64,000 bases of DNA from Bifidobacterium breve. Its GTDB lineage: Bacteria; Actinomycetota; Actinomycetes; Nanopelagicales; Nanopelagicaceae. Position numbers and translations under genes: made by a program. The stretch spans positions 41,863 through 105,862 of the forward strand of contig CAMAPO010000003.1 of the NCBI GenBank assembly GCA_945860245.1. Reading direction: 5' to 3'. Below, piece by piece: positions 1-64,000 of this stretch (the stretch's first letter is position 1; each line of letters opens with the position of its first letter). The notes under the pieces are model-generated. The model worked only from the letters and a program-made list of their open reading frames with translations. It was not told the origin of the DNA and made no database searches.

Positions 1-1364
1 TGACAGTAAACCTGAGGCAATAGATCAGGCAGCGCATGTTTATTTGGAGTCTTCCAGCCGCCCGGTGGGTAATCTTCTTTTCTTGGTAAATACATAATTG
101 ATCCGTTGGTGTATCCAAGTACGAACGTTTGCGGCATTGGAGATTTTGCTTGGATCTCCTCGCCTGTCTCAAAGAATGCTTCGACGCCGAGTCCCACCAG
201 CGCTACATCACCGATTCTTAGCGCGTGTGCAATGAAATCATCTGTCGGATTTGGATCACTCAATCTACTTATGGTCATTTGAACCCACGCATAAGTTGTC
301 TTAGCCGAACGGATCTCCCAAGAGAGAGCACCGCGTGCAGTGCGATCTGCAATCTCTTTTCGCCAATACTCTTCCTGGCTTCGTAGATAACTCTCATCAG
401 GTAATGGCGAGTATCTAAATTTGACGATTTCCTCGGCGCCGGCAAGTGTTACTTCTGGATGATCAGTTCGATTATTCCAAGGCTTGAAGAGAACGTTCGG
501 CACATTATTTACCGTAGTTCGATCGCCCTGGAAGCGGTGGGTATTGAGCCCAAGTGCAATTCTCACAACTTCAGCACCAAGTGCTGTACCAACTCTATAA
601 ACAGATTCGCTGCAATCTTTCTCGTATCCAATTCCTATCTTTGGATTGAGATTTCCGCCGCAACCTTGTAGGAAAATACCGATTCCGCCAACCTTCTCCT
701 CAACTAATTGACGTGCTGGTCCTGGAAAATCAGCAGATAAAGTAGTTGATACCGCACCATTTACTACTGGGTGGCAGGAGTATCTAAACAGGGTGAGAAT
801 AGCTTTTCCGTTTAAGTCATCAAATCTAATTACACCGACGCTGTCATCTACTCGGTGATCGATAACTTCTCCGAGAATATCTTGTCCGTTATTCCACTCT
901 CTGCGATAAATATTGAGATCAGCTGCACCCCAAGCATGCGCCATTCTGGCATCTACCATACTTGCTAGCGCTGAGCGAGTGCACTGGGCTAACTTGTCGA
1001 TCACGCCATTTTGATAGCGACTTATATCTTCAAATTCATCTTCATTGCTAGGACTACCATAATTTCGCTTCAGAGCAGGAGCGCTGTGATTGTGGCTTAC
1101 ATTAAAGAGAACACTGGCACGGGCTATCTTTAAAATATCTGCAACAGTATCTCTAAATTCATTTGCTTCTTCTGTTGTTGCACTGCTGAGGTCACAACCG
1201 ATTATTGCAATCGTCACACCTTTAGATTGCAGAACTGCAACACCCAGTTCGATCTCAGCATCAATCGAATATATTGGCTCACCAAAGAGTCTAAATCCAC
1301 CTTTTCTTAAACCTAACGGCGGACTTATATTTATTGAAGCAGCGCCAACTCTTAGAGCGGTCAT
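1..1364 (-). CDS. Neutral/alkaline non-lysosomal ceramidase-like protein, C-terminus cut by window edge
   Basis: Reverse-strand frame open from ATG at 1364 to the window edge: MTALRVGAASINISPPLGLRKGGFRLFGEPIYSIDAEIELGVAVLQSKGVTIAIIGCDLSS...NVSHNHSAP...FLQGCGGNLNP. Not in the ORF track because it is incomplete. Confidence 0.6.
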   Translation of the reverse strand, partial: MTALRVGAASINISPPLGLRKGGFRLFGEPIYSIDAEIELGVAVLQSKGVTIAIIGCDLSSATTEEANEFRDTVADILKIARASVLFNVSHNHSAPALKRNYGSPSNEDEFEDISRYQNGVIDKLAQCTRSALASMVDARMAHAWGAADLNIYRREWNNGQDILGEVIDHRVDDSVGVIRFDDLNGKAILTLFRYSCHPVVNGAVSTTLSADFPGPARQLVEEKVGGIGIFLQGCGGNLNPKIGIGYEKDCSESVYRVGTALGAEVVRIALGLNTHRFQGDRTTVNNVPNVLFKPWNNRTDHPEVTLAGAEEIVKFRYSPLPDESYLRSQEEYWRKEIADRTARGALSWEIRSAKTTYAWVQMTISRLSDPNPTDDFIAHALRIGDVALVGLGVEAFFETGEEIQAKSPMPQTFVLGYTNGSIMYLPRKEDYPPGGWKTPNKHALPDLLPQVYC

Positions 1365-1479
1365 CGGGAAACCTACTTTCGTTTGATCCCTTGGAATGGC
1401 TAATCTATAAATAGCAAATACTAAAGTCAATGATTTTTCTACTTGTTATCTACTGGAAAAGTTATTGATTTTCAGGTAA

Positions 1480-2259
1480 TTAGTAGATGTGAACACCACC
1501 GCTGACGTTGAGTGTCGCGCCGGTAATAAAGGATCCATGATCTGAGGTAACAAAGACTGCAACTGATGCGATTTCTTCTGGTTGACCAATTCTCTTTAGC
1601 GGACAAGCATCAATAATGGCTTGCACGTTCTGTGCAGTGTTATCTCGATGCTGCATTGGAGTATCGATCTGGCCGGGGGAGATCGTATTTACGCGGATTC
1701 CAAAAGTTCCTAATTGTTTTGCAAGTCCTCTTGAGAAAGCAACGACGCCCGCTTTAGAAGCGGCGTAAGCATCTGCGCCAAAGAATGAACCGGTTGACCA
1801 TGAAGGTGAGGTGAAGGTAAGAATTGAACCAGCGCGCTTATTCTCCTCCAGATGTTCGGCCACTGCTCGCGCAATTAAGAAAGTGGAGCGCAGATTTGTA
1901 TCAAATTGATTATCCCAATCTTCAACAGTGACATCTTTAAGATCTTTCCTTTTCAAAGTTGCCCCAGCCAATATCACCGCATCGACTCCACTAAAGCGAT
2001 TAATCGTTTGCTCCATTATCTCTTTGGCGCAGTGTTCACCGGATAAATCAACGGAGAGAATAAGATGGCGCGATGGATCTGAGAATTCGCCCTCCAGTTC
2101 AGAGAGCCTTCCCTTATCGAGACCAACGGCAATCACCGAAGCGCCGACTCGCTCGAGCAGAAGTGCTGTTGCTTTTCCTATACCGCTACTTGCACCAGTA
2201 ACAATTATCCGTTTTCCTTCAAGTCCTCTACCTATAGATAGATCGCTATCAGAAGACAT
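1480..2259 (-). CDS. SDR family NAD(P)-dependent oxidoreductase
   Basis: TGASSGIGKA cofactor motif, YAASK catalytic motif. Confidence 0.9.
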   Translation of the reverse strand: MSSDSDLSIGRGLEGKRIIVTGASSGIGKATALLLERVGASVIAVGLDKGRLSELEGEFSDPSRHLILSVDLSGEHCAKEIMEQTINRFSGVDAVILAGATLKRKDLKDVTVEDWDNQFDTNLRSTFLIARAVAEHLEENKRAGSILTFTSPSWSTGSFFGADAYAASKAGVVAFSRGLAKQLGTFGIRVNTISPGQIDTPMQHRDNTAQNVQAIIDACPLKRIGQPEEIASVAVFVTSDHGSFITGATLNVSGGVHIY

Positions 2260-2294
2260 GAGTTGCTCCTTTTATTTGGTTAATTTTACTTCAT

Positions 2295-3281
2295 TTACTT
2301 TCTAGAAAAACTTTGACTGCCTCGAGCAAGTGCTGGTGCAATCTCGGCAACGGTTACCCAGCCTGGTTGCGCCTGGATAATTCTTTCGATTGAGTTGATC
2401 ACCATATTTTGTGAGCCCATCTGCGCACCGATTCCTGGGTTAAGCGAGATAGTTTGATGAATCTTTTGATCGATGCTGATCTCAATCTCATCTTTAGCGA
2501 CTTTCTGAATTCCAGGGAGATCAACATGACCAAAGAAGTGCGATGAGAACCAAGGCTTACCTTTAACGATTGCGGTATATGTCTGGTTAACTCCAGCGCT
2601 ATAACCTGGTTCAATAACGAATTTCTGGGGTAGGTCAATCGAGCGTTCTGCAACAACTGGAAGTAACTCCTTATCGATTCGCTCAATTTCCAATCCGAGC
2701 GCATCAGCGACCACGTTCATCGATTGCGGAAAGCCTGCGTGCCCCAGGATCTCGCCCCGCTCGACTTTCTCTTTAAATTCTTTCTCGGTGACACCGACAC
2801 CGATTCGTCGCAGAACTGTCGCACCAAAACCAGAGATATTTACTGTTCGTCGTACCGCCACTGTCGTTTTTGGTGATCCATCACCGTTAAATCCCGAAGG
2901 AGTTGGTCCAAGTAGGGTCGCAACCAAGGAATCAAAGATTAGCCCTGGGTTAACACCTGCACCGGCAATACTGACTCGCTTGGCTTTAGCTAATTCATGA
3001 AGTTCATCTGCCAACTTCTTATCAACTGCCCACGGATAGGCACATTCTTCTGCAGAGACCAAAACATTGGAACCAGCGTTGACCGCATCTCTGATGTAAT
3101 CAGCAACATCTTTAAAGAGAGTAGTTGTAGCAATGAGAACTACATCAGCTCCGGAGTTGAGAGCTAACTCGCGATCTTCACGGGGAAAAGGTCCTGCGAC
3201 GCGGTGGATTCCTCGCGTGCGTAAACCGGCTGCAACTGCTTGGCCAAGTTGGCCAGCGCCGTAAATCGCAACCGAAGCCAT
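2295..3281 (-). CDS. Dihydrodipicolinate-reductase-like NAD(P)-binding dehydrogenase
   Basis: N-terminal VAIYGAGQLGQAVA Rossmann motif; GAGVNPGLIFD segment typical of DapB-like amine dehydrogenases. Confidence 0.6.
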   Translation of the reverse strand: MASVAIYGAGQLGQAVAAGLRTRGIHRVAGPFPREDRELALNSGADVVLIATTTLFKDVADYIRDAVNAGSNVLVSAEECAYPWAVDKKLADELHELAKAKRVSIAGAGVNPGLIFDSLVATLLGPTPSGFNGDGSPKTTVAVRRTVNISGFGATVLRRIGVGVTEKEFKEKVERGEILGHAGFPQSMNVVADALGLEIERIDKELLPVVAERSIDLPQKFVIEPGYSAGVNQTYTAIVKGKPWFSSHFFGHVDLPGIQKVAKDEIEISIDQKIHQTISLNPGIGAQMGSQNMVINSIERIIQAQPGWVTVAEIAPALARGSQSFSRK

Positions 3282-3318
3282 TTCGCCTCCTACAGAATTC
3301 TGATCGAACTAGAGAACG

Positions 3319-4437
3319 CTAATTTTTATCAACGCGGTATTGCGCAATAAAATCTTCATTCAGCTTCCAGCCAAAGCCTGGTTCAGTTGGAAGAATGAAA
3401 TCTCCGTTGACCAACTTTGGACGATTATCAAGAATTTCCCAGAAGATCGGATCTCTAGTCGGCGAGAAGGATTCGACATAAGTTCCGTGAGGAACCGATG
3501 CAAGTAAATGAGATGCCACTTGAGCTTCTTCGTGATGGCCGAGTTGAACTTCAAAGGCAAGTGCCAGCGCTGCAATCCGTCGCCACTCAGTAGGACCGCC
3601 GCCCCAAGATGCATCAAAATTACAGACATCTATAGCGCCATTAAGCATCATCTCGCGCATGCCGACTCTGTGGATCTCACTTTGACCGGCGGCGACATTT
3701 ACATTTCCACGAAGTCTTACATCCTTAAGGCCGCGCCAATCAGCGTGCCAGCGTGTTGGTTCTTCAAACCAACGTAACTTAACTTCGCCTTCGATAAGCG
3801 AGAGAAAGTTAAGCGCTTCGGCAACGGTGTAACCCTGATTTGCATCTACAACAAAAAGGAAGTCATCGCCAACAATTGATTTAGCAAGTTTTAATCGAGC
3901 TGCATCTTCCTCTGGTGGCTTGGCGCCGATTTTAAACTTCATACCAACCATGCCAATTTCATCTTTAAAGAATGCTAACTCTCGTTCTAGATCTGCTTCA
4001 CTCGAACCGTAGTAACCACCAATACCAATCATTGGAATTCGATCACGATATCCGCCCCAGAGGCGCCAAAGCGGTTGACCGGCGATCTTGCCAAAGCCAT
4101 CCCAGACAGCGCTGTCGACACACGCAATTGCCTGCATTGGCATAGCGCGATTGCGAAGTTGATCAAGAGTTACTGGGATCATTGCATGCCAGATCTTTTC
4201 AACCTGGCGGATATCCATTCCGGTGACTAGCGGCGCAATCTCATCATGGATAATTCCCAGAATAATATCTTGCTCTTCATCAGTATCAGCGTTGTAACTT
4301 TGGCCAATTACTCCATCAGATGTATGGATTCTGGTGATGATGGTGCAACGATTTCGCATCTTGTAGTAAGAACCCTTATAGATGTGCTTAAGAGGAACTC
4401 TTAGTGGAATCGTCTCAATTCGTTCAATTTTTGACAC
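3319..4437 (-). CDS. Mandelate racemase/muconate lactonizing enzyme family (enolase superfamily)
   Basis: KFKIG (KxK), VVDANQGY, WFEEP, GQSE and LGHHEE motifs. Confidence 0.85.
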   Translation of the reverse strand: MSKIERIETIPLRVPLKHIYKGSYYKMRNRCTIITRIHTSDGVIGQSYNADTDEEQDIILGIIHDEIAPLVTGMDIRQVEKIWHAMIPVTLDQLRNRAMPMQAIACVDSAVWDGFGKIAGQPLWRLWGGYRDRIPMIGIGGYYGSSEADLERELAFFKDEIGMVGMKFKIGAKPPEEDAARLKLAKSIVGDDFLFVVDANQGYTVAEALNFLSLIEGEVKLRWFEEPTRWHADWRGLKDVRLRGNVNVAAGQSEIHRVGMREMMLNGAIDVCNFDASWGGGPTEWRRIAALALAFEVQLGHHEEAQVASHLLASVPHGTYVESFSPTRDPIFWEILDNRPKLVNGDFILPTEPGFGWKLNEDFIAQYRVDKN

Positions 4438-4448
4438 TTCTAAACCTA

Positions 4449-4682
4449 CTATTCTAGAACGGCGATAACTTCGCCAGTGTTTATCTCTGCATCTATAGCA
4501 AATCTCAACTCAGTAATCTTTCCTGAAGCAGGAGACGGAACTGTTAACTGTGCTTTATCGGTTTCAACTTCCAGCAAATCTTCACCTTCGTTGACCGTAT
4601 CGCCTACAGCTTTAAGCCATGAGACCAGGTAAACCGAATCAACAGTTTCGGCAACGCGCGGCATGGTGATTTCGATACTCAT
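4449..4682 (-). CDS. Stand-alone biotinyl/lipoyl domain protein (77 aa)
   Basis: Lipoyl motif EVETDKAQLTVPSPASGKI; no E2 catalytic domain in frame. Confidence 0.85.
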   Translation of the reverse strand: MSIEITMPRVAETVDSVYLVSWLKAVGDTVNEGEDLLEVETDKAQLTVPSPASGKITELRFAIDAEINTGEVIAVLE

Positions 4683-5678
4683 TTATTGACTAACCTTTCT
4701 GCTCCAGATGTTTTCAAACATTGTCTTGGTTGTAGGTTCGGGGGCTGCCTGACATAAGGCGACGGTAGCCTCAATCTCTTTCGCTATACGAACTTTCATT
4801 TCAGCGATTTCGCTCTCAGTCATCTTCCCGGACTTCTTAACCCGCTCTTCTAATAGAAGTAGTGGATCGCGTGATTTCCAGGAGTCGAGTTCACCTTCTG
4901 GGCGATAAAGTGCTTGATCTGCACGGGAGTGGCCCGCAAAGCGGTAAGTCTTCGCTTCGATAAGGGTAGGTCCGCCACCAGATCGTGCGCGATCAACTGC
5001 AGATTGAACTCCTTCACGCACTGCATCGATATCCATTCCGTCAAGTGCGAAATGTGGCATCGCATAACTCTCGGCGCGAATATGCAAATCTTCAATCGGT
5101 GTTGTCAGATTTATACGGCTGTATTCTGCGTAAACATTGTTATCGCAGATAAAGACAACCGGCAATTTCCAGATTGCTGCAAGGTTTAAAGTTTCGTGGA
5201 ATGCGCCGATGTTTGTGGCGCCATCTCCGAAGAGAGCAACTGCAACTCGATCATTTCCTTGAATCTGGAATGCAAGTGCAGCGCCAGCAGCGATGGGCAT
5301 GCCACCACCGATAATTGCAGAAGTTGGAAGTAGCCCTAACTCAATATCGCAGAGGTGCATCGAGCCACCAAGACCTCCGCAGCATCCAATCGCTTTACCC
5401 ATAATTTCGCCCATTGCAGACTCGGGCGTTATACCAAGTGCGAGGGCAATTCCGTGACTTCGGTATGTTGCAGAAACTGGATCATCAGTGCGTAGCACGC
5501 TCGCCATACCGATTACTAAAGCTTCTTGACCGAGACAAAGGTGAGTTGTGCCTCTAATAGTTCCTGATGCGAAGAGAGCATTAATTTGATTTTCAAATTC
5601 TCGGATCTCAACTGCACGCTCAAACTGTGCAACTGGATCGCTAAGAATCGCTTTACGTCGCTCTAGACCTTTACTCAT
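4683..5678 (-). CDS. TPP-dependent 2-oxoacid/acetoin dehydrogenase E1 alpha subunit
   Basis: GDGATNIGAFHETLNLAAIWKLPVVFICDNN TPP-binding motif; GHSRADQALYR. Start likely at internal Met (5678) after the upstream CDS stop. Confidence 0.88.
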   Translation of the reverse strand: MSKGLERRKAILSDPVAQFERAVEIREFENQINALFASGTIRGTTHLCLGQEALVIGMASVLRTDDPVSATYRSHGIALALGITPESAMGEIMGKAIGCCGGLGGSMHLCDIELGLLPTSAIIGGGMPIAAGAALAFQIQGNDRVAVALFGDGATNIGAFHETLNLAAIWKLPVVFICDNNVYAEYSRINLTTPIEDLHIRAESYAMPHFALDGMDIDAVREGVQSAVDRARSGGGPTLIEAKTYRFAGHSRADQALYRPEGELDSWKSRDPLLLLEERVKKSGKMTESEIAEMKVRIAKEIEATVALCQAAPEPTTKTMFENIWSRKVSQ

Positions 5679-5680
5679 TT

Positions 5681-6685
5681 TTAGAAACCCTCCCGTGTCC
5701 ACCAAGGCTGCGGCGCTTTGCCTGTGGCCATCAATTGATCAATCTGATAATTAACTTCAACTGGATTTGGTAGGAAGCGCGCTTCCAGGCCACCGTTGTA
5801 AGGGACTGGGACATTTGGGCAGGTGATTCTAATTGGAACTGTTTTGAGGTCTGCGAATAACTCAGCGACCACCGCTGCAACAACTTCAGATCCCCAACCA
5901 CCACTTTCTGGTTGCTCTTCAACAACGACTAGGCGACCAGTTTTCTTCACTGATTCCAATACCGTTTTCTTATCCCAAGGAACGATGGTGCAGAGGTCAA
6001 TAATTTCAATATCTATACCGCTGGTTGCAGCAGCTTGACGCGCGACATTTGTCATCTGTCCAAGGGCAACAATGGTGAGATCTTTACCTGGCTTTACTAC
6101 TCTGGCTTTGCCGATCTCCATTTTAAGATTTGTATCAACTTCACCGCGCTCTGCATAAGTAACTCTTGACTCTAAGAACATCACTGGGTCTGGATCCTGA
6201 ATCGCAGCGCGCAACAGACTGTAAGCACTCTGTGCATCACTTGGAGCGAGAACTTTAAGTCCGGGTGTGGCAGCTACCCAGTTTTCAAGAGTTTGTGAAT
6301 GTTGTCCACCGAAACCAAGTCCGCCTCCGACAGATGCTCGAACCACCATTGGAACGGAGAGTTGTCCATTACTTAGGTAACGCATCTTCGCGCCTTCGGT
6401 AACGAGTTGATCAAGTGCTACGCCGAGAAATTCTATAAACATAATTTCAATAACAGGTTTCATGCCCATTGTGGCGGCACCAACTGCAGCTCCAGTAAAT
6501 GCCATTTCAGAGATAGGTGTATCACGCACGCGAACTGGCCCAAACTCTTCCAATAGACCTTCGGTGGTTTTAAATGGTCCCTCAGCTGCTGCTATATCTT
6601 CACCGAAGACGATTACCGTTGGATCGGTGCGCATCTCATCAGCGATGGCTGTTGCGATTGCTTGTCTAACGCGCATTGCTGGCAT
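5681..6685 (-). CDS. TPP-dependent 2-oxoacid/acetoin dehydrogenase E1 beta subunit
   Basis: FGEDIAAAEGPFKTTEGL, DTPISEMAFTGAAVGAA, C-terminal transketolase fold. Confidence 0.9.
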   Translation of the reverse strand: MPAMRVRQAIATAIADEMRTDPTVIVFGEDIAAAEGPFKTTEGLLEEFGPVRVRDTPISEMAFTGAAVGAATMGMKPVIEIMFIEFLGVALDQLVTEGAKMRYLSNGQLSVPMVVRASVGGGLGFGGQHSQTLENWVAATPGLKVLAPSDAQSAYSLLRAAIQDPDPVMFLESRVTYAERGEVDTNLKMEIGKARVVKPGKDLTIVALGQMTNVARQAAATSGIDIEIIDLCTIVPWDKKTVLESVKKTGRLVVVEEQPESGGWGSEVVAAVVAELFADLKTVPIRITCPNVPVPYNGGLEARFLPNPVEVNYQIDQLMATGKAPQPWWTREGF

Positions 6686-6734
6686 TGTGCCCCCTCTAAA
6701 AGTTACTAGAAATCACTATTGGAAACGATTGCTA

Positions 6735-6765
6735 TAGTATGGGCGCAGCAGGAGCAAGTCAACGC
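6735..6765 (-). promoter_or_regulatory. Sigma70-type promoter for the E1beta-E1alpha-lipoyl-MR-DapB-like-SDR operon
   Basis: Reverse strand reads TTGACT - TGCTCCTGCTGCGCCCA (17 nt) - TACTAT, upstream of the 6685 start. Coordinates approximate. Confidence 0.6.
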
Positions 6766-6803
6766 TTATAGCTGTAATTTCAAAATGTGAGAGCGAGTGA
6801 TTA

Positions 6804-52407: not shown

Positions 52408-52481
52408 ACCGCTGTAGCTCAATGGATAGAGCATCCCCATAACTAAGGGAAGTGTAGCGGGTTCGAATCCCCTCAGCGGTA
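52408..52481 (+). tRNA. tRNA-like gene, isotype unresolved (apparent anticodon AAC by standard numbering)
   Basis: Perfect 7-bp acceptor stem ACCGCTG/CAGCGGT (extends to 11 bp), TAGCTCAATGGATAGAGCA D-arm, GGGTTCGAATCCC T-arm; but C31-A39 and C50-C64 mismatches. Confidence 0.55.
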
Positions 52482-52544: not shown

Positions 52545-53027
52545 CTACCCACAACTTATGTTGTGAATATCGGCGAACATATCCGCCTGCCTCCCCGGAC
52601 GCTCCAACACGTAATCACCACAAACCTGGCAAAAGGCGTCGTAGTAATAAACCCCGCGCTCTTCCATCCACTTGTAGTCATATATAAATGCAACAACAAC
52701 CTCACCGAAATCCGGCAACGACCTGTGACCACGCGCGCGATGCGCCGCATCTAGATCCAACTGCGCAAGCCCACCGACTTCGGCCTTGGCCCCCATCGGA
52801 ATTACCAAACCACACGTGCAGTGCCATTCTCTCCCCGCGTAATTTACATATCCCCAATGCCACTTCTGTTCTTGCCAACCTTTCAAATTGGCATAGCGCA
52901 GCCAATTCTTAAAGCGCCCGTACTTTTCCATCGTTCCGCCAGGTGTGTCATTCTGTTTTTGCTTCAACTCGATTAACAACTCAGGAGCAACGCTTACATC
53001 AAGATATTTCTTCTTTGCTTTTGGCAT
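52545..53027 (-). CDS. Hypothetical protein with CxC/CxxC pairs (possible zinc ribbon)
   Basis: EWHCTCGLVIP...DAFCQVCGDYVLERP; no family recognised. Confidence 0.5.
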   Translation of the reverse strand: MPKAKKKYLDVSVAPELLIELKQKQNDTPGGTMEKYGRFKNWLRYANLKGWQEQKWHWGYVNYAGREWHCTCGLVIPMGAKAEVGGLAQLDLDAAHRARGHRSLPDFGEVVVAFIYDYKWMEERGVYYYDAFCQVCGDYVLERPGRQADMFADIHNISCG

Positions 53028-53233
53028 AACAAACACAGTCCTTAATGGACCTCATATTGAGACCCGCTCTTCTGGCGGTGTCATTCATCGCCAGCAGGTC
53101 TTCTCTAGAACCACCGTGCGCGGTTGGCGCGGTTGGTACTAAGCAAGCTAAAGGCTTAACGCTTAGTTCTTGACCTAGGTAAAAGATACATCCAGCCACC
53201 GTCAACTCCGAGTAGCCCAGCCCAAAGCCCACC

Positions 53234-53368: not shown

Positions 53369-54313
53369 GTGAGCGCAGAAAACAACGATGAGAACAAGAC
53401 CCAAGAGCTAGAACTCTGGGAGCGCATGAGTACAACCGAAGGTGCCGAAAGAGCTGAAGTCTTAGATGAACTCAGCCACATCGCATACCGGCGAGATGCT
53501 TTCAACGAATGCTTGCAACTCGTTGATACATCAATCGATATCTACTTCAAACTAGGTATGGATTCACATATTAAAGAACTTATCCACCTCTACGAAGGAA
53601 AAGCATTTTCACTGCGCCACTTAGAACGGCCCGCAGAATCTGCAGATACCTTTGAAGAAATAGCCACGTTGCATCAGATCAATGATGATACAAATGGTTA
53701 TATAAGAGCCAAGCGCGCCGCAGCCTGCGATTGGTATGACGCCAGAGAATGGCAGAAATCACTTGACGGACATATAGCCGCACAAGGTGCAATTGATCCA
53801 GATGCCACACCGATGTCGATGGGGACCGACCTCTTAAATATCGGAACTGCGCAGATTAAATTAAATCTGCACACCGAAGCAATTGCAACTTTCTTAAGCG
53901 CTCGCAAACTATTTAAGGAAGTGAAGAACCCGGAATTCGTTAACTGGGCCGATCAATATCTAGCGATTACATATGCAGTGCTAGAAAATGGCCCAGAAGC
54001 AAAGTTCCACGCCAAGCATTACTTTAACTATTCAAAAGTTGCCGAAGATATGTCAATGGAAGGCTTTGCACGTTATCGCCTTGGCATCGCACATCTACTC
54101 TGCCAGGAGTATGAAGATGCAGAAAGAGAACTAGTCTCAGCCTTAGAACAGCTAACACTCGATGAGAATAAAGATTGGGAAGATATTCTCGGCGCCAATC
54201 AAGCACTAGCCAAAGTGCTCACCGCACTTGGCAAGGAAGAAGAAGCCAACATCCGGCTAGAACGTATCGCCACTATCGCAGAAACGATCTTCGGCGATGC
54301 AGAAGCCGCATAA
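53369..54313 (+). CDS. TPR-like repeat protein
   Basis: Helical repeats, e.g. ALDELSHIAYRRDAFNECLQLVDTSIDIYFKLG; GTG start. Confidence 0.6.
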   Translation: MSAENNDENKTQELELWERMSTTEGAERAEVLDELSHIAYRRDAFNECLQLVDTSIDIYFKLGMDSHIKELIHLYEGKAFSLRHLERPAESADTFEEIATLHQINDDTNGYIRAKRAAACDWYDAREWQKSLDGHIAAQGAIDPDATPMSMGTDLLNIGTAQIKLNLHTEAIATFLSARKLFKEVKNPEFVNWADQYLAITYAVLENGPEAKFHAKHYFNYSKVAEDMSMEGFARYRLGIAHLLCQEYEDAERELVSALEQLTLDENKDWEDILGANQALAKVLTALGKEEEANIRLERIATIAETIFGDAEAA

Positions 54314-54368: not shown

Positions 54369-54872
54369 ATGAAGAGATTGTTAACAGCAGTCCTGGTATT
54401 TACATTTCTCGCTCTTTCTCCAGCTTCTGCCCATCAGCCTGTATTTCTACTAGATACCGATACAACTGCTGCTAAAGGCCCTTTGTTAGTCGATGGCACA
54501 GTCTCATTTGCCGTGCAGGCATCTTTTGCTAAAGCTGGCCAAAAGAAAGCTTTTCGCGCAGCCCTTAAGGATGGCGATCAACTCGCTGTTCAGTATTTGA
54601 TTATGGATCAACCACCTAGCAATCGTCTTAAGAATAACCTTCTTCCACAAGTGACAATCACCGCACCCGATGGCAAGAAGACAGTTATGAAGATTACCGA
54701 GCGCACCGTGTTTTATGAGAAGTACAGCGGTACTAACTATTTCTATCTATCTCGCCTTGATGCCCCAGCAAAAGCGGGGATCTACTCGTTCGTCATCACC
54801 GCTCGTGCAAAATCCGCGGTTACGATCGCAGTAGGGGAGCAAGAGATACCTGGCGATGTTATTCGCAAGTGA
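54369..54872 (+). CDS. Secreted hypothetical protein
   Basis: Signal peptide MKRLLTAVLVFTFLALSPASAHQ; start at 54369 rather than 54297. Confidence 0.6.
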   Translation: MKRLLTAVLVFTFLALSPASAHQPVFLLDTDTTAAKGPLLVDGTVSFAVQASFAKAGQKKAFRAALKDGDQLAVQYLIMDQPPSNRLKNNLLPQVTITAPDGKKTVMKITERTVFYEKYSGTNYFYLSRLDAPAKAGIYSFVITARAKSAVTIAVGEQEIPGDVIRK

Positions 54873-54918
54873 CTTCCAAACAACTTCTTGAATTTGGGGG
54901 TAAAAAGCCTTGAACCGA

Positions 54919-54931
54919 TGATTAAGAGTTA
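54919..54931 (+). repeat. Left copy of 13-bp direct repeat TGATTAAGAGTTA (putative att core)
   Basis: Exact match to 63734-63746. Confidence 0.6.
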
Positions 54932-55015
54932 TAAGACAGTGAGAATCTGAGTTTGTTTAAAGAAGTAATTGACGGGATTTAGAGCTTTTCCAAGGGGAAA
55001 ATCGGTCGACTTTAT

Positions 55016-56140
55016 TTATGCCAGATCTGCAATATCTCCACCGGGAGTAATTCCCTCTAGTTCACATATCTTCCGCGCCATCTTCAGCGTTATCAAGAGG
55101 TCTTCCTTGCCGGAAATAATGGGATCCTCTTGTTGTTTTCCAGTATGAACTAATTCAGCAAAGGCGGCTAATTCGATTTCAAAATTGGGCTGGTATGACT
55201 TGAAGCTACTCTCGACATGATCTAGACCATTTCGCTGTGTGTGAATGTACTCTGTTGGCACCCTTAAGATATATGGACTATAAAAAATTATGTGATGGCC
55301 CTCTTTCTCATTAACCCAACGAATCTCCTCTTGATACTTTGGGTAGTCCTCAAGATAGAACCAACGGATTGTGACTCGGACTCCATCTAAGGTATGTCCT
55401 AGGATAATAAAGGATTCGCTACGACTCTTCTGTGGCCATCGATCAACATAATCAATTTTCTCGATATGCACATCTAGCGCTCGCAATACGGAGAGTTCGT
55501 GGATTATTGAGCCCATCATTATGTCGTGATATTCGGGACCGAAGGCCTTGGCAGCATCAGCACCTAAGGCATCAACCATCGCCTTTTTGTTTGACTCCTC
55601 TATCTTTGCGAGTGATTCTTTTGATAGCGGAAATGTTTCGAGGTGTGCATCGGTTGTGGCTACTTGGCTATCGCCGCTAGGGTGAAAAACGACCACATCA
55701 ACACTTCTTGGACGACTTTTGATTCGTTCTTGGGCCTTGTAGACAGCCTGATCGAAAGTTTTCATATACCCAAGCATCAATTTACGGCCAGACTTCCGCC
55801 AGGCAGTCTCTATCAAGACCATCTCATCCTGAGAATATGCGAGGGGTTTCTCGCAAAAGACATCTAAACCTGCATCAAGGGCCTGAGCGGCGACCTGCGC
55901 ATGTGCTCCAGAATTCAAGATGAATACCGCGTCGATTTCACCAGATTCATACATTGCAGCGGTCGAGTCAAATACCTTGCTGATAGCAAAACGCTTGGCT
56001 AGCGCATCTGCAGCCGCTCGATTTAGATCTGTGATTGCACGTAAGTCAAAGAGGTCAGTTCGTCGTCGCAAAATTGGTAGATGAACAGATGATGCAATTA
56101 AGCCAGCGCCAACGACACCAATCCGTATTGGTATAGGCAT
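55016..56140 (-). CDS. Gfo/Idh/MocA family oxidoreductase
   Basis: GVVGAGLIASSVHLPIL; GLDVFCEKPLAYS. Confidence 0.92.
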   Translation of the reverse strand: MPIPIRIGVVGAGLIASSVHLPILRRRTDLFDLRAITDLNRAAADALAKRFAISKVFDSTAAMYESGEIDAVFILNSGAHAQVAAQALDAGLDVFCEKPLAYSQDEMVLIETAWRKSGRKLMLGYMKTFDQAVYKAQERIKSRPRSVDVVVFHPSGDSQVATTDAHLETFPLSKESLAKIEESNKKAMVDALGADAAKAFGPEYHDIMMGSIIHELSVLRALDVHIEKIDYVDRWPQKSRSESFIILGHTLDGVRVTIRWFYLEDYPKYQEEIRWVNEKEGHHIIFYSPYILRVPTEYIHTQRNGLDHVESSFKSYQPNFEIELAAFAELVHTGKQQEDPIISGKEDLLITLKMARKICELEGITPGGDIADLA

Positions 56141-56370
56141 GAAAACCTCTGATTCTTCCGAACTTGATCCTTAGAGTAACGGCTACTAACTGCAGGCGCC
56201 ACGGTGATTAGCAGTCTAACTGACGTATTTGGCCCCAGTGGGGTGATTCTAAAAGGTCGCCTGATTCCCTGTGGGTGATGTACTATCGAATTTAGGCATA
56301 CAACCCTCTTCCATATCGAGCTCTTCCCGAATAAAGTGAAGATACAAGCACGCTCAGAGAGGGGCGCAAA

Positions 56371-57726
56371 ATGAAAGCCAAAGTTGTAATCGCATTAATT
56401 GCATTATCTATGACGGTCGCGGGTTGCTCTAGTCCTGGATCAGATAGCGAAAATAGTGCAAATACTACAGAAACAGTAAATCAACCAGTCACTGTTGAAG
56501 AAGTGGCCGCCTTAGGTGATATCACACTCGATGTTTGGGCTGATGCGGGTGAAGAGAAGACAATGAAAATTCTTATACCTAAGTTTGAGGCTATGTATCC
56601 AAATGTAAAGGTTAATCTCACAATTAAAGGCTTTGATGATCTCATGAGCACTGTAGTTCCTGCCTTAGCTGGAGAGGGAGCACCAGATGTGGCTCAAGGT
56701 AATCAAGGTTATGGGGTAGATGGTGCACTAGTTAAAGCAGGGCTCATCAGAAAACTTACTGATGTTGCTGCAGCTTATAAATGGGACAGTGTTTTTAACT
56801 CAGGAGACTTCGGTCAATTTTCCTGGAGTGAGGACGGCTCCCAGTACGGCTCAGGTGAGTTATTTGGAATGAGTCCTGTGGCTGAATTTGTTGGTGTTTT
56901 CTATAACAAGAAGAAATTAACGAAATTGGGTATTTCAGTTCCAACAAGCTTTGATGAATTTGCGGCCGCAGTTGCAGCAGCGAAAAAAGCAGGAGAAACT
57001 CCAATAGTTCTCGGTAACTCTGATCAATGGCCAGCTACGCATGTCTTTGGATTAATGCAAGGTGCATTCACACCCGCATCTGAAACTAAAGACTTTATAA
57101 CTGGAGCAGCAGGATCTTCATTCGTGTCGAAAACAAACGAGACTGCATTAAACACTCTGCGTGACTGGATCAAAAAGGGTTACTTCACTAAGGGTTATGA
57201 TGGAGTGAGCGCTGATGATGCAACTGCTAAGTTTGCGGCTGGCGACGGTGTCTTCTACATGGGTGGTACTTGGTTCGCTGGGACTATTGGTGAGGGACTG
57301 GGCGATGACGCTGGCTTCATTGCAAATCCCGCTGCCGGATCTGGTAAGCGAGCTGGAACAGGTTCATATGGACTTGGTTGGCACATAAGTAGCAAAACTG
57401 ACGCGCTAAGTGCATCAGTTGCATTTTTAGCGATGGTTATGGATGTAGAGACTGCTCAAACTCTGGCCTCCCTTGACCGCATTCCATCTGCAAAGACTTC
57501 TCTTGAAGCAAGCAGTAGTTTGCTAAAGGATATGCAGGATGCTGGGGCGAGTATGTTTGCTGACTCAGGGCTGACTTTCTATCTGGATTGGGCTACTGAC
57601 ACAATGTATGACGTTTACACGTCAAAACTTCAGGAGTTCATGGCAGGTAGAATTGATGCATCGGCAATGATGCAAGCAGTTCAAGATAATTGGAGTAAAT
57701 TCCAAGAATCAAGATCTAAAGCGTAG
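56371..57726 (+). CDS. CUT1-type sugar ABC substrate-binding lipoprotein
   Basis: Lipobox MTVAGCSS; ITLDVWADAGEEKTMKILIPKFEAMYPNVKVNL. Confidence 0.92.
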   Translation: MKAKVVIALIALSMTVAGCSSPGSDSENSANTTETVNQPVTVEEVAALGDITLDVWADAGEEKTMKILIPKFEAMYPNVKVNLTIKGFDDLMSTVVPALAGEGAPDVAQGNQGYGVDGALVKAGLIRKLTDVAAAYKWDSVFNSGDFGQFSWSEDGSQYGSGELFGMSPVAEFVGVFYNKKKLTKLGISVPTSFDEFAAAVAAAKKAGETPIVLGNSDQWPATHVFGLMQGAFTPASETKDFITGAAGSSFVSKTNETALNTLRDWIKKGYFTKGYDGVSADDATAKFAAGDGVFYMGGTWFAGTIGEGLGDDAGFIANPAAGSGKRAGTGSYGLGWHISSKTDALSASVAFLAMVMDVETAQTLASLDRIPSAKTSLEASSSLLKDMQDAGASMFADSGLTFYLDWATDTMYDVYTSKLQEFMAGRIDASAMMQAVQDNWSKFQESRSKA

Positions 57727-57731
57727 TTAGG

Positions 57732-58664
57732 ATGCGAGGCGCCACTTCAAATAAAAGTGAGATGCGAATAAAGTCTCATAAAGATATGAAGTGGCGCCCT
57801 CGCCAGTTTGATTTACTTCCCATTATTTTTGTTTCCCCAGCTCTAATTTTCTTTTCTCTATTTGTTATTTATCCGATATTCCAAACTCTGTGGTTATCTT
57901 TTTGGAAGTGGGATCGAATATCACCTAGCATTTGGGTAGGTATTGAGAACTATCGAGTAGTACTCTCCAATCCGGAGATTTATTCCGCATTTTCACACTC
58001 TTTTGTCTTTGTTATTTTTTATAGCGTAATTCCCATATTTATCGGACTAATGATCACACTTCTATTATTAAGAGTAAAAGTCCGTGGCGAGGGTTTCTTT
58101 CGTGCAATACTTTTTATGCCGCAAATAATTTCGACAGTTGTCGTGGCAATATCTTGGCGATGGATCTACGCTTCAGATGGGCCAATTAATGATTTTTTTA
58201 TATTCTTAGGTGCCGAGAAGATCACAACTGCATGGCTAGGTAACTTTGACACAGCCCTTATTGCTGTCGGCATCATTGGAACTTGGATAAATTATGGTCT
58301 AGCAATGATTCTATTTTTATCTGGGGCACAACGAATATCTCAAGATTTGCTTGATGCAGACAGAATTGACGGCGCAAATATGTGGCAAGAATTTCGATAT
58401 ATTCTTCTGCCCAGCATTAGGGGTGAAATCGTAATCGTCTTAATTGTAACTATGACCCTTGCATTACGAAATTTTGATATTGTCTGGAATGCAACACAAG
58501 GTGGCCCGGGAAATTCTACGGATGTTCCCAGTATTTTTATCTATAAGTCAGCCTTCGTAAATAGATATGTTGGAGAAGCAGCAGCAACCTCGTTTATCTT
58601 GGCGCTCGTGATTTTTTCAATTACAAGTGCATTGTTACTAAGTAGAAGAGAATCTGATGACTAG
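57732..58664 (+). CDS. CUT1-type sugar ABC permease
   Basis: DADRIDGANMWQEFRYILLPSIRGEI EAA-like motif. Confidence 0.9.
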   Translation: MRGATSNKSEMRIKSHKDMKWRPRQFDLLPIIFVSPALIFFSLFVIYPIFQTLWLSFWKWDRISPSIWVGIENYRVVLSNPEIYSAFSHSFVFVIFYSVIPIFIGLMITLLLLRVKVRGEGFFRAILFMPQIISTVVVAISWRWIYASDGPINDFFIFLGAEKITTAWLGNFDTALIAVGIIGTWINYGLAMILFLSGAQRISQDLLDADRIDGANMWQEFRYILLPSIRGEIVIVLIVTMTLALRNFDIVWNATQGGPGNSTDVPSIFIYKSAFVNRYVGEAAATSFILALVIFSITSALLLSRRESDD

Positions 58665-59484
58665 TCTTCGTGACAAATTTATAGCCTATACAGTTTTATT
58701 ATTTGGGGCAGTAGTTGCGCTTTATCCCCTCTGGTCAATATTTAATCTCTCCATCTCAGGATCAAGGAGCATTGAGAAATCTGAATTAACATTTCTCGGT
58801 ATCTATTTTGGTAATTATGTCGAAGCGTGGAATCGGGGTGCTTTTGATCAGGCTTTATTGTCGAGTCTGTTTGTATCAACCACAGTTGTTCTTGTAACCT
58901 TGCTTTGTTCAGTGTTGGCTGGGTATGCCCTTGCTTTGATGAAGGTGCCCTTCTCTAGAACTATTTTATTGTTTTTACTCCTTGGATTAGTTATGCCTTA
59001 CGAGGGAATTGTAATTTCCCTCTATGAGATGATGAGTGCGCTAAATATCCTAAATACTTACTGGGCCTTAATTCTCCCGCAGATTGCTCTTTCAACTCCC
59101 TTCTCCGTACTTTGGCTAAGAACTTTTTTTAGAACAATCCCACGAGGAATCTTGGAATCAAGCACACTGGATGGGGCAAATCGGTGGCAAAGCTTGAGAT
59201 ACATTTTGATTCCGTTGGCGAAATCTGCTATCGGGACTCTAGCAACATTACTTTTTTTGTTTACTTGGAATGAATTCTTACTGGCGTTAGTGTTGGTCCC
59301 AAGTAACTCCTCTGTTCAAACAGTTCCATTGTCCCTTTCTTTCTTTGCGGGAAATAGAAGAAATAGTGATCCTTCAGTAACTGCCGCCGCCGCCGTTATG
59401 GTTGCCTTACCCATCTTGTTGGCATACGTTTTTCTTCAGCGCAGATTAATCAGGGGCATAATTTCAGGTGCTATTAAAGAATAA
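58657..59484 (+). CDS. CUT1-type sugar ABC permease
   Basis: ESSTLDGANRWQSLRYILIPLAKSAIGTL EAA-like motif. Confidence 0.9.
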   Translation: MTSLRDKFIAYTVLLFGAVVALYPLWSIFNLSISGSRSIEKSELTFLGIYFGNYVEAWNRGAFDQALLSSLFVSTTVVLVTLLCSVLAGYALALMKVPFSRTILLFLLLGLVMPYEGIVISLYEMMSALNILNTYWALILPQIALSTPFSVLWLRTFFRTIPRGILESSTLDGANRWQSLRYILIPLAKSAIGTLATLLFLFTWNEFLLALVLVPSNSSVQTVPLSLSFFAGNRRNSDPSVTAAAAVMVALPILLAYVFLQRRLIRGIISGAIKE

Positions 59485-59523
59485 TCTTCTGGAAAACAGA
59501 TAAATCTCTTAGTTTTATTCTAA

Positions 59524-60420
59524 TTACGGCTTCCAGTTTGCCGGGACATCACCAGAGCCTCGCAGGTAAACTGCCGAATCTGACCGCTTTACAGACATTT
59601 TTTCTTTCGAGCCCTTAGGAAGAAAGAAAGCGTCACCTTTGGAAAGAACTGAGTTTGAAATTTGACCATTCATTCCATCCACAGAGTCGATGATCAAGGT
59701 GCCCTCTAAAACATACACAACACATTCTCGCTCGACCAGTGCAAAATCCTCAACATGACCTAATTCAATAGTCCCCTTAATAACATGCAGAAATTCAGTT
59801 GCTACAAGTGTTGAAATGAGATGGGTTGGATCTGAATCACGAAAAGACAAAATTGATGTTTTATCTGAAATCTCAAAAAAAGATGCCTTACTTTTTGAAT
59901 CTGGCGAACTATCTGGCCAGTTATTTACAGTATTCCCATAATTGTATTTATTTTCTAGCAGGGGCGGTTGTTTCTTTGAGAATTCAGAGGCCGCTCCCAT
60001 TGCTGGGGGAGGGGAGAAGTACTCAAGGACACGAGTAGTTTTTTTCCCCTTGCTAAAGCCATGATTCCAGGTTTCTCGATGAAACAGTAATCCGCTTCCT
60101 TCGCTCGCTAATTCAACTTCACCAGTTTTGGGATTAGCTAAAATCAGATCACCCTCTAATACGAAATATAGAACATCTGCAGCAAAGATTGTCTGATTTA
60201 TTGAACTATGTCTAAACCCACTACTAGGGCCTAATTCAAATTCAAGCACATGCAATTGTTTTGTTGATGATATAACTCGATCGGTGACCAAGCCTGATGT
60301 TGAGTCACCCCAGGTGTGCATGACCATATTTTCTCTTTTAATATGAGTAGGTTCTTTAAACTCTGGTCTTGGAGTCGGCTTACGTTTGATTTCTGAAGGC
60401 TCTAATGGATTTTCCGGCAC
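59524..60420 (-). CDS. Bicupin domain protein
   Basis: Two cupin-like barrels: ADVLYFVLEGDLILANPKTGEVELASEGSGLLFHRETWNHGF and CVVYVLEGTLIIDSVDG...LSKGDAFFLPKGS. Confidence 0.75.
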   Translation of the reverse strand: MPENPLEPSEIKRKPTPRPEFKEPTHIKRENMVMHTWGDSTSGLVTDRVISSTKQLHVLEFELGPSSGFRHSSINQTIFAADVLYFVLEGDLILANPKTGEVELASEGSGLLFHRETWNHGFSKGKKTTRVLEYFSPPPAMGAASEFSKKQPPLLENKYNYGNTVNNWPDSSPDSKSKASFFEISDKTSILSFRDSDPTHLISTLVATEFLHVIKGTIELGHVEDFALVERECVVYVLEGTLIIDSVDGMNGQISNSVLSKGDAFFLPKGSKEKMSVKRSDSAVYLRGSGDVPANWKP

Positions 60421-60528
60421 AAACGAATTGTAGCACTATCATAAAATACAGATATTTCAGCGCTAAAGAAAATACGAGACCAAAGAATTTATTCGCAGAA
60501 GTTTAGGATTTAGCAAGGGTGTTATAGA

Positions 60529-61428
60529 TTATTTCTTTTCAAGATTTCCCAATATTTTTAATGAATTTTGGGCTATAACGCCAGCTCCAATTAAACCTGA
60601 ATTAGAATGAGATGCCAGGCTAATAATGTCACTAATAGTTCTTGGCAAAAGATCACCAACCAATTCTCTGTAATTCTGTGATCCTAGCCAAAGACCACCT
60701 CCAATAATAATTTTATGGGGATCTAGGACTTCGACTAGATTTGTTAATCCTCGACTGAGACTCTCAGCAGCCTGTTTAATTACTATTCTGGAATTAGAAT
60801 CTGAATCAAATTTTTGGAAGACTTCAACCGCTCCACGCACTGAGATGCCACTCAACCGTTCATATTCTCGTGCGATACCAAGGCCAGAAGCAACAGATTC
60901 TAATGACTTAAGCCGCCCACCGTGCTCAATTTGGGTTACTCCAAATCCGATTGCACGTCCATTTGCACCTGTCCACGCGCGACCGTCAATCACCATAGTA
61001 TGAGAAATCCCAGAACTCACCAATACATATAAAAAATTAGTTTTTAATTTATCCTCTATTAAGTGCAGCTCACCCATTGCTGCACATCTGATATCAGATT
61101 CAACAATCCAATCAATTCCTGTGAGTTCAAGTAATTCACTTCTCGGTTGACTTTGCCAATCCATTGTATCCTTGCTTATTAATTGACCATCATTGGAAAC
61201 ATACTCTGGAAAGCCGATGCATGCTGATGAAATCTTGATATTAGATTTTGCAGCTAATGACGTTAATTCAACAATAACATTCTTTGTCCGGTGTAATCCC
61301 TGATCTGCTAAACCAAGTATAGATTCCCGAGAGGCTATCGTCTTTTCATGAATTATCTTTAGGTTTTCATCCAAAATTCCTCCATGAATCTTTGTTGCCC
61401 CTACATCAACAGCAAGAACGTACTTCAC
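60529..61428 (-). CDS. ROK family kinase
   Basis: VLAVDVGATKIHGGILDENL; no N-terminal HTH; IIIGGGLWLGSQ. Confidence 0.85.
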   Translation of the reverse strand: MKYVLAVDVGATKIHGGILDENLKIIHEKTIASRESILGLADQGLHRTKNVIVELTSLAAKSNIKISSACIGFPEYVSNDGQLISKDTMDWQSQPRSELLELTGIDWIVESDIRCAAMGELHLIEDKLKTNFLYVLVSSGISHTMVIDGRAWTGANGRAIGFGVTQIEHGGRLKSLESVASGLGIAREYERLSGISVRGAVEVFQKFDSDSNSRIVIKQAAESLSRGLTNLVEVLDPHKIIIGGGLWLGSQNYRELVGDLLPRTISDIISLASHSNSGLIGAGVIAQNSLKILGNLEKK

Positions 61429-61534
61429 TAAAACCTCCAGCTAGAACCACAGCCACTATTCATGCACGTACTAAGTATCTTGTTAGAGAGGAAGTTTTGG
61501 CAAACTTAGGCAGACAACACATTCTAAACTATGA

Positions 61535-61819
61535 CAGATTGTTGAGAGCTACCGATTCTCTCCTCTCTTCTTTCCTGCATTTCCGGTTGCCTTAGTGTGG
61601 CGCGGACCTACTCGGGTGATTAGCAATTGGCATCTGGCTCGAGGCTTGATTCGACACGGCAGACTTGATTTAGCGCGTCATATCGCGGCTCAGAGCATAG
61701 AGTTGGCGAAGAAGAGTGGCGTGCGTGAGTATTACAACCCAAGCACAGGAGCAGATTGGGGAGCTCCAGATTTTAGTTGGTCAACGGTTCTAATTGATTT
61801 AGCAAAGGAAGTAATCTAA
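61535..61819 (+). pseudogene. C-terminal remnant of a GH63/trehalase-like glycoside hydrolase
   Basis: In-frame ...FPAFPVALVWRGPTRVISNWHLARGLIRHGRLDLARHIAAQSIELAKKSGVREYYNPSTGADWGAPDFSWSTVLIDLAKEVI; matches the C-terminal (alpha/alpha)6 signature only; frame closed by TGA at 61532. Confidence 0.65.
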
Positions 61820-62698
61820 GTGAGAGAGTTCAAACGTTTGCAAGGCTCAAAGATTGGCCTGGTGCCACTTAATTGGAGATTTACCGATGAACGCAAGAGT
61901 GAAGTTATCGCAAAGTTTGCAGAGTATGGTTTTCTTGGTATCCAAGTTTCTGAGAAGCAAGCAAACTCATCTGAGTATCGCAATGTTTTTACAAAATACT
62001 CGATAGCAGCTGCTGAACTTTATATAGCAATAAAGTGTGATACTAAATCAATTGCAGAAAATTCAGATGAGGAGACCAAACGTCAGATTGACTCTGCAAG
62101 AAATGCAAATGTGGAGATGATTGTATTTGCCGTAGATGGCGATTCTGTTCGTGACCGGATTGCATCCAATGTCCGTCAAGAACATGCTTTGACTCCAAAA
62201 GCGCTAACCGAATTGGCTGAGCACTTAAATAAGTGGAGCAAATACTGCAATTCCCTTGGAATGCGTGCTTCCTTTCATCCTCATGCAGCCACTTATATTG
62301 AAACCCCAGAAGAGACTGCAAATCTGTTTTCTAAATTAGATGAGAATGTAGGGTTCTGTCTTGATGTAGGCCACTGGTTAGTAGGTGGCGGTGACCCAGT
62401 TGAGGCCGTTAAAGAATACAACTCTCGAATAACTCACATACATGTTAAAGATGTTGACCCTCAGGTGTTGGCGAAACTAAAGACGGGTAAATATCGGGGA
62501 ATGGATATAGCAGTAACTCAAGATAAGCTCTTTACACCTGCTGGCACTGGAGCTCTTGATCTAGATGGTCTTTTTGACTCGCTAAACCAAGTTGGCTTCA
62601 GAGGCTGGTTGATGAGTGAACAGGATTCAGCTTGGGAGCCTTCAGAGGAAAAATCCTTAGAGTCTTATCGCAATATTGAAAGGGCGCTAACTACCTAG
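61820..62698 (+). CDS. Sugar phosphate isomerase/epimerase (xylose-isomerase-like TIM barrel)
   Basis: ASFHPHAATYIETPEET; GFCLDVGHWLVGGGDPVEAVKEYNSRITHIHVKDVDP. Confidence 0.9.
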   Translation: MREFKRLQGSKIGLVPLNWRFTDERKSEVIAKFAEYGFLGIQVSEKQANSSEYRNVFTKYSIAAAELYIAIKCDTKSIAENSDEETKRQIDSARNANVEMIVFAVDGDSVRDRIASNVRQEHALTPKALTELAEHLNKWSKYCNSLGMRASFHPHAATYIETPEETANLFSKLDENVGFCLDVGHWLVGGGDPVEAVKEYNSRITHIHVKDVDPQVLAKLKTGKYRGMDIAVTQDKLFTPAGTGALDLDGLFDSLNQVGFRGWLMSEQDSAWEPSEEKSLESYRNIERALTT

Positions 62699-62772
62699 AA
62701 TTTTCTTAACTCCAATAGCAACATTAGTTAGATTTGCAACTACAGCCTTAATGTGTCGAACACTTGTTGACT

Positions 62773-63579
62773 TTATCCCACAAGCTCATCGACGACGATC
62801 ATCCCCTCCCGGCACTCCGCGACCACGGTAGCTGGCCAATTTGGGTCATATTTTCTTGCTGAGCTAATTATTTGGAACGCCTCTCGCTTTTCCTTGCTAG
62901 TTAGGATCATGATTGCCAATCGAGACTTATCTGCAATAGTCGATATCCCAACTGAGACACCAAATCTAGGCACTTCCTCAATACTCTTGAAATCAGGAAA
63001 TGTAAGTAAGTTATCGTTGCGAGTCTTTTCTGCCAGCCCCATAACTGATGTCAATGATTGCCTTGCGGCACCAGGCCCATTAAATGCAACGTGGCCATCG
63101 CTACTTCCGCTGGCAAGAATAAAGATGTCTATTCCACCAAGTGAATCAATTAAATTTTCATAGGCCATTGGATCTTCGGCATCAGGGGCATGAAGATTTG
63201 CCAAGTTGATCTGTCTAGGTTTTTCCAGCCCCGCATTAATAAGAGTCACCAATTCTTCGTGGGCAAATTTCCGACAACTAAAGTGCTCAGATAGGGAGAC
63301 ATTCTTAAATTTACCTTCGGGCTCCTGCCAGACATAGTCATCCATCAACAGAATGTGCACTTGCGAAAAATCTAACATTTCCTTGTGGGCAATCTGAGCG
63401 AGAGCTTTGATGGTAGACCTTGGAGTGCGACCGCTGGGAAAGCCCAAGACAAGGCGATTAGAACCAGCCTGTTTTATCGCGGTAGCAATCTTTTGGCCAA
63501 CAAATTCACCAACAGAATCAGAGTCCTTCAACTTGATTATTGGAACTGGTGTGCTCGACATCTGCCTAGGATAGTGCAC
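62773..63579 (-). CDS. Glucosamine-6-phosphate deaminase/6-phosphogluconolactonase family
   Basis: LGFPSGRTPRSTIKAL; ILLMDDYVWQ; ASGSSDGHVAFNGPG. Confidence 0.85.
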   Translation of the reverse strand: MHYPRQMSSTPVPIIKLKDSDSVGEFVGQKIATAIKQAGSNRLVLGFPSGRTPRSTIKALAQIAHKEMLDFSQVHILLMDDYVWQEPEGKFKNVSLSEHFSCRKFAHEELVTLINAGLEKPRQINLANLHAPDAEDPMAYENLIDSLGGIDIFILASGSSDGHVAFNGPGAARQSLTSVMGLAEKTRNDNLLTFPDFKSIEEVPRFGVSVGISTIADKSRLAIMILTSKEKREAFQIISSARKYDPNWPATVVAECREGMIVVDELVG

Positions 63580-63701
63580 GAAGAGCTCAACTGGAGTTGC
63601 TGAATCTCGAGTTGTTTAATAACGGTAAGGACCATGTTGACAGCTCCTTGAGCCAAAAGAAGCAATACGAAGATTCATGCAGAGCCACTTACGCTCATAA
63701 G

Positions 63702-63744
63702 TGGGTTGTGAGGGGATCGAACCCCCGACCCCGTGATTAAGAGT
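63702..63744 (-). pseudogene. 3' half of tRNA-Lys(CTT); 5' half absent
   Basis: Reverse strand ACTCTTAATCACGGGGTCGGGGGTTCGATCCCCTCACAACCCA; intact anticodon loop CTCTTAA, paired T-arm, 3' acceptor strand; upstream sequence does not supply CGTGA or a GGGTTGT 5' strand. Confidence 0.75.
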
Positions 63745-63746
63745 TA
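63734..63746 (+). repeat. Right copy of 13-bp direct repeat TGATTAAGAGTTA
   Basis: Exact match to 54919-54931. Confidence 0.6.
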
Positions 63747-63773
63747 ACGGATTCCATTGTGTACGCTTCACCC

Positions 63774-64000
63774 ATGTCCTTCGTTATGTACTCAACTACC
63801 TGGTGCGGCTATTGCAAGCGCTTGAAATCTCAATTGGCTGATCTCGGGGTGACCTTTGAAGAGATCAATATTGAAGAGGTTGCGGGTACGGCAGAGATTG
63901 TTGAGAAGGTAAATGGTGGCAATCGCACGGTGCCGACGTTGGTGTTCTCGGATGGAAGTGCGATGACTAATCCATCGGCTAAAGAGGTAGTGGAGAAGTT
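63774..64000 (+). CDS. Mycoredoxin/glutaredoxin-like protein, truncated by window edge
   Basis: MSFVMYSTTWCGYCKRLKSQLADLGVTFEEINIEE...GGNRTVPTLVFSDGS. Confidence 0.88.
   Translation, partial: MSFVMYSTTWCGYCKRLKSQLADLGVTFEEINIEEVAGTAEIVEKVNGGNRTVPTLVFSDGSAMTNPSAKEVVEK

Follow-up and report, generated by a model that had tools for sequence, protein, structure and literature searches.

A sugar cassette bounded by a recurrent recombination-like core in a Planktophila-group bacterium: a probable integrase-less integrative element

Introduction

Two exact copies of a 13-bp sequence bracket a block of sugar genes in the genome of a tiny freshwater bacterium of the Planktophila group, and half of a tRNA-Lys gene adjoins one of the copies. 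How did this block come to lie there? Among streamlined freshwater actinobacteria, strains reportedly differ in their carbohydrate transporters (PMC10872708). A preliminary description of the locus proposed that an integrative element had used the 13-bp sequence as a secondary attB. We compared the locus with other genomes of the genus and with known genomic islands. The 8.8-kb cassette is probably a non-autonomous integrative element, lacking an integrase of its own, at a core site that is not a tRNA gene.

The host assembly (G000) is a draft of 1.39 Mb in 47 contigs and is 93% complete. The window, that is, the whole stretch of 64,000 nucleotides that was analysed, corresponds to C3:41863-105862 and reaches the contig end. 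Positions are those of the window unless a contig is named.

Results

The cassette and the repeat at its borders

The repeat TGATTAAGAGTTA is present on the + strand at 54919-54931 and 63734-63746, exactly where it had been described, and the sugar-uptake block lies between the two copies (Table 1). The cassette has a GC content of 42.7%, against 45.7% in the window to its left. None of its genes encodes an integrase of any kind, as had been noted before. The glycoside hydrolase gene at 61595-61819 is truncated, a sign of an earlier deletion or recombination. Outside the left arm, the cassette DNA had no match above 72% identity in 134 relatives, and by this comparison the cassette is missing from them. 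The secreted-protein gene on the left matched no Pfam or NCBIfam family. The only tRNA gene that ARAGORN found in the window is a tRNA-Val at 52408. A SAM-IV riboswitch lies at 53061-53175 (-), between ORFs at 52545-53036 (-) and 53369-54313 (+).

Table 1. Coordinates of the cassette, its borders and its flanking genes in the window.
Feature	Position	Strand	Basis or remark
Small secreted-protein gene, left flank	54369..54872	+	homologous in many relatives; DNA identity 89-90% with G001/G139 up to 54906
Putative left attachment site CCGA-TGATTAAGAGTTA-TAAG	54915..54935	+	CCG before the core is the genus consensus
Putative left element arm (P arm)	54919..55005	+	match in G137:C3; shorter ones in G110, G114, G140
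Gfo/Idh/MocA oxidoreductase (inositol-dehydrogenase-like)	55016..56140	-	family profile match
Sugar ABC transporter substrate-binding protein (SBP_bac_1)	56371..57726	+	family profile match
Sugar ABC transporter permease	57732..58664	+	family profile match
Sugar ABC transporter permease	58657..59484	+	family profile match
Cupin-like protein	59524..60420	-	weak match, under Pfam cut-off
ROK-family sugar kinase	60529..61428	-	family profile match
MGH1-like glycoside hydrolase, C-terminal fragment	61595..61819	+	match covers only positions 291-356 of the 356-position profile
TIM-barrel protein like inosose dehydratase (IolE)	61820..62698	+	under family cut-off
Glucosamine-6-phosphate deaminase/isomerase-like (NagB family)	62773..63579	-	family profile match
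Putative right element arm (P' arm), hairpin CCACTTATGAGCGTAAGTGG at tRNA 3' end	63668..63700	-	arm common to G014, G013, G033, G147, VGAE01000029
3' half of tRNA-Lys(CTT), variant TCACG...TTCGATC	63701..63744	-	alignment to intact tRNA-Lys genes
Putative right attachment site CCCG-TGATTAAGAGTTA-ACGG	63730..63750	+	exact core copy, genus comparison
Mycoredoxin gene, right flank	63774..64000	+	runs off contig end, goes on in contig C27

Could the two copies be a coincidence of 13 bp beside a stray tRNA fragment? The argument that a chance 13-mer match at both borders would be too rare did not hold, since 57 maximal direct repeats of 13 bp or longer occur in the window. Among these 57, however, the TGATTAAGAGTTA pair is the only widely spaced one with both copies outside ORFs of at least 100 aa, and the sequence has just two exact copies in the whole 1.39-Mb genome, both at the cassette borders. 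Moreover, homology to unrelated loci begins at both copies, and the left one is preceded by the CCG expected from the extended consensus given below. Coincidence is thus very improbable. The repeat by itself is insufficient as proof, which has to come from comparison among genomes.

Just past the right copy, 63861-64000 is identical to G000:C27:11736-11875, and this 140-bp exact overlap of two contigs resembles a fork in a k-mer graph. We also asked whether the contig end at 64000 points to alternative junctions and dismissed the idea; that end lies beyond the core and is therefore no evidence for this site.

The core site recurs across the genus

A search with the 17-bp pattern TGATTAAGAGTTAACGG, allowing at most one mismatch, found the core in 34 of 135 genomes of the genus, and a reversed-pattern control gave 0. 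At positions -4 to -2, which lay outside the search pattern, 16 of the 34 core sites have CCG; the background before TGA in the window is 15 of 1180. The 13-bp unit exists as it was described, but the functional unit appears to be longer, CCG[A/G]TGA-TTAAGAG-TTAACGG. In this unit the 7-bp TTAAGAG, which is the anticodon loop of tRNA-Lys, is placed between the inverted arms CCG[A/G]TGA and TTAACGG. This is the layout of a tyrosine-recombinase core. XerCD/dif was considered as the recombination system and put aside, since the core does not appear to resemble dif.

The 21-bp form had 32 matches in 257 Gb of GTDB prokaryote genomes. All but one are in records titled actinobacteria (31/32), mostly lake MAGs, and the one in a record titled proteobacterium may be a case of misbinning. 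The core was not found in viral contigs. Eight of the 34 cores have a contig end within 170 bp, where 0.8 such cores would be expected, and this excess is what assembly forks would give. At 75-310 of locus L143 (G115:C31), two cores are about 226 bp apart and the second has a tRNA-Lys 3' half, so that the pair might be a mini-element or a bare pair of arms. A sequence of 150-210 bp, seen at L135:10593-10803 and in several core-bearing loci, is present in at least eight loci in all, often near cores.

Flanks are exchanged at the core

G137 has an empty form of one such site, with a SOUL-domain gene on one side of the core and a DUF2087 gene on the other. In G024 this site is occupied, and an insert of 23.3 kb with a core at each end separates the same two flanks (left flank 96% identical over 581 bp ending at the core, right flank 90% identical over 121 bp from the core). 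Other pairs share one flank only, among them G077/G108, G139/G107, G086/G098, and the window with G071. Alignments among core-bearing segments started at the core in 34 of 55 cases, and a single MAG, Kiruna3_bin-1122, has one right flank joined to two different left flanks. These alignments show the core as a recurrent junction where flanks are exchanged. Since the border copies of the cassette belong to a recombination site that recurs across the genus, the cassette is most likely passenger DNA that was moved by a borrowed integrase to a spot other than the usual tRNA target.

For the window itself, the empty junction that had been predicted, with the secreted-protein gene, the core and mycoredoxin in a row, was in no relative examined. 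In G071 the core directly precedes mycoredoxin, with no tRNA half, and the match to the window (85% over 273 bp) begins at the core, but the gene on its left is a different one.

Both arms are shared with other elements

On the left, homology of the secreted-protein gene in G001 and G139 ends about 12 bp short of the core. The left arm is 90% identical over 83 bp, from 54920, to G137:C3, where the match begins inside the core, the gene on the left is a different one, and the cargo that follows differs too. The left copy has the core only and no tRNA half, in agreement with the preliminary description.

On the right, the 3' half of tRNA-Lys(CTT) does adjoin the core, and ARAGORN found no intact tRNA at this border. 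The tRNA half plus CACTTATGAGCGTAAGTGGCTC is common to the window, G013, G014, G033, G147, and VGAE01000029, and G013, G014, and G147 match the right arm with 91-95% identity along 65-76 bp. After this arm, G014 has a leader and then a complete small tyrosine integrase in which the catalytic signature is present, VGAE01000029 has the leader and a 25-aa fragment, and G147 has the leader alone, while the window, G013, and G033 have the arm only. The set reads as a series that would lead from autonomous to integrase-less elements. By these matches, both arms of the cassette are shared with other elements, and in G014 an integrase goes with the right-arm type. No other element is known to have the left and right arms together.

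The integrase of the kind found in G014 and G094 has a PF00589 domain with a SAM-like N-terminal domain. It is present in 11 of 135 genomes and absent from the host, in which the only two PF00589 genes are consistent with XerC and XerD. No relative of this integrase was found in viral contigs, and the matches in phage records were distant integrases only (about 26-28%). In G094:C12 (L139), two tRNA-Lys 3' halves lie in tandem at 1107-6800, 5.7 kb apart, and a tyrosine integrase is encoded at 1220-1987 next to the first half. At G114:C2:18864-20505 and again at G028:C104:2019-3579, two integrase genes with 45-48% identity to that of G094 lie side by side.

Past the right core, the sequence (TTAACGG...) is similar to arms of other elements, and TTAACGG begins element arms in G094, G090, G077, and G082. 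The mycoredoxin side could therefore be element DNA too. The same is suggested by the upstream neighbor of mycoredoxin in the window, which no relative examined has at this place; most relatives differ from each other there. The right core might thus be the junction of two inserts in a composite or tandem island, in which mycoredoxin onward is a second element with an arm starting TTAACGG. In that case, a simple empty site that took up the whole cassette in one piece would not be required. The tandem tRNA-Lys halves of G094 agree with such an arrangement. However, 11.7 kb of contig C27 past mycoredoxin contains no further core, and the arrangement in G071 is also what an ordinary chromosomal site would give. 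We consider a composite island unlikely, although far from negligible.

The tRNA-Lys gene of the host lacks the core

The intact tRNA-Lys(CTT) gene, for which a search had been advised, was found at G000:C2:139838-139911, but its anticodon stem and 3' flank are unlike those of the tRNA half in the window. The stem is AGGCA/TGCCT, not GGTGA/TCACC; three pairs are changed with compensation, and the att core is lost. The preliminary description equated the core with tRNA-Lys sequence. This is nearly true of relatives, whose tRNA-Lys reads TGATTAAGAGTCA and agrees at 12 of 13 positions, but the host's own gene reads GCATTAAGAGTGC, and thus the tRNA half in the window is not derived from its present form. 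The difference fits integration away from a tRNA gene.

It also bears on whether the cassette could be an ordinary tRNA-Lys island that was moved by rearrangement, the half being a remnant of the host's old tRNA-Lys and the left core its partner. Classic tRNA-Lys islands do occur in the genus, as in G014, where the intact gene and the remnant are 4.1 kb apart, and the genes around the window are in a shuffled order compared with G001. Nevertheless, given the differences in anticodon stem and 3' flank, and a left border that matches no tRNA locus seen here, a displaced island is improbable.

Across the 135 genomes, tRNA-Lys(CTT) occurs with three stem alleles, GGTGA/TCACC, AGGCA/TGCCT, and AGCGA/TCGCT, and G089 and G140 have two alleles each. 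On a tree of 60 genomes built from the single gene XerC, the tRNA changed between the att-positive and att-negative states at least nine times, a number that could be inflated by recombination of the XerC gene. Whole or partial tRNA-Lys halves of the GGTGA type were present in 11 of 14 genomes matching the pattern. No AGGCA-type remnants were found, with a search pattern that misses arms beginning TG. Standalone or half-tRNA cores are present in 12 of 24 att-negative genomes versus 7 of 62 att-positive genomes (Fisher p = 0.0003); with phylogenetic correction, which leaves only 7 independent pairs, the association of core use with tRNA allele is not significant.

Discussion

The reading that we favor is a non-autonomous element at a non-tRNA core. 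Its ends would be the left arm at 54919-55005 and the right arm at 63668-63744, the latter carrying the tRNA-Lys(CTT) 3' half. The att core of the element would have been recombined with a matching chromosomal core by a tyrosine integrase, of the G014/G094 kind or another, that either acted in trans or was lost afterwards. The crossover would lie inside the 7-bp TTAAGAG flanked by the inverted arms, and the target would have been a non-tRNA copy of the core between the secreted-protein gene and mycoredoxin. This model predicts an empty junction ...CCTTGAACCGA-TGATTAAGAGTTA-ACGGATTCCATTG... and a circular junction ...GACCCCG-TGATTAAGAGTTA-TAAGACAG... We infer the acting integrase, the order of events, movement as one unit, and an earlier core at this spot. 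The att cores, the tRNA half in the element arm, and the non-tRNA site agree with the earlier proposal of integration at a secondary attB, but this term may be too narrow. Across the genus the core is found at many places other than tRNA genes, and it therefore has the look of a site family in regular use.

Genomic islands with tyrosine integrases in tRNA genes are known as the Islander type (PMC4383910). Similar to these, the cassette has an att core from the anticodon loop, a tRNA 3' fragment in the element arm, and direct repeats at its ends. G014 is a standard example at tRNA-Lys, while the cassette has no tRNA gene at either end and no integrase, and its target would be a core copy outside any tRNA gene. 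Additive flexible genomic islands with tRNA-fragment repeats have been described in Actinomarinales (PMC7771536), and fGI-2 of Methylopumilus sits at tRNA-Lys(ctt) (PMC10872708). These share with the cassette a streamlined planktonic host, small cargo cassettes, and part of a tRNA repeated at the cassette ends. However, they adjoin a tRNA gene and repeat part of it, whereas the cassette has a short core and its own arms away from a tRNA gene; cassettes stacked at a tRNA gene were not seen here. Tycheposons, described for Prochlorococcus and Methylophilaceae (PMC10872708), also carry nutrient-related cargo and have tRNA sequence at a border, but they have a border tRNA gene and their own tyrosine recombinase, both of which the cassette lacks. 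The cassette would behave like a tRNA-targeting integrative element and like the additive islands, but since defining features of standard islands (intact tRNA, integrase) and of tycheposons are absent, it is best described as a putative integrase-less cargo element on a recurrent non-tRNA core.

A broader scheme can be offered only as a speculation that we ourselves doubt. Cassettes might be exchanged genus-wide on a core copied from the tRNA-Lys loop, the tRNA escaping through the compensated alleles AGGCA/TGCCT and AGCGA/TCGCT and the elements going to non-tRNA cores, as in the window. If this is true, the escape alleles would preserve folding of the tRNA while destroying the att site. The switching of alleles points to the possibility that an essential tRNA evolves out of its role as an attachment site. 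The cassette itself bears on how carbohydrate-transporter genes move without plasmids or obvious integrases, and the defined site of 21 bp, whose flanks can be exchanged, offers a means of mapping cargo exchange in genomes and reads.
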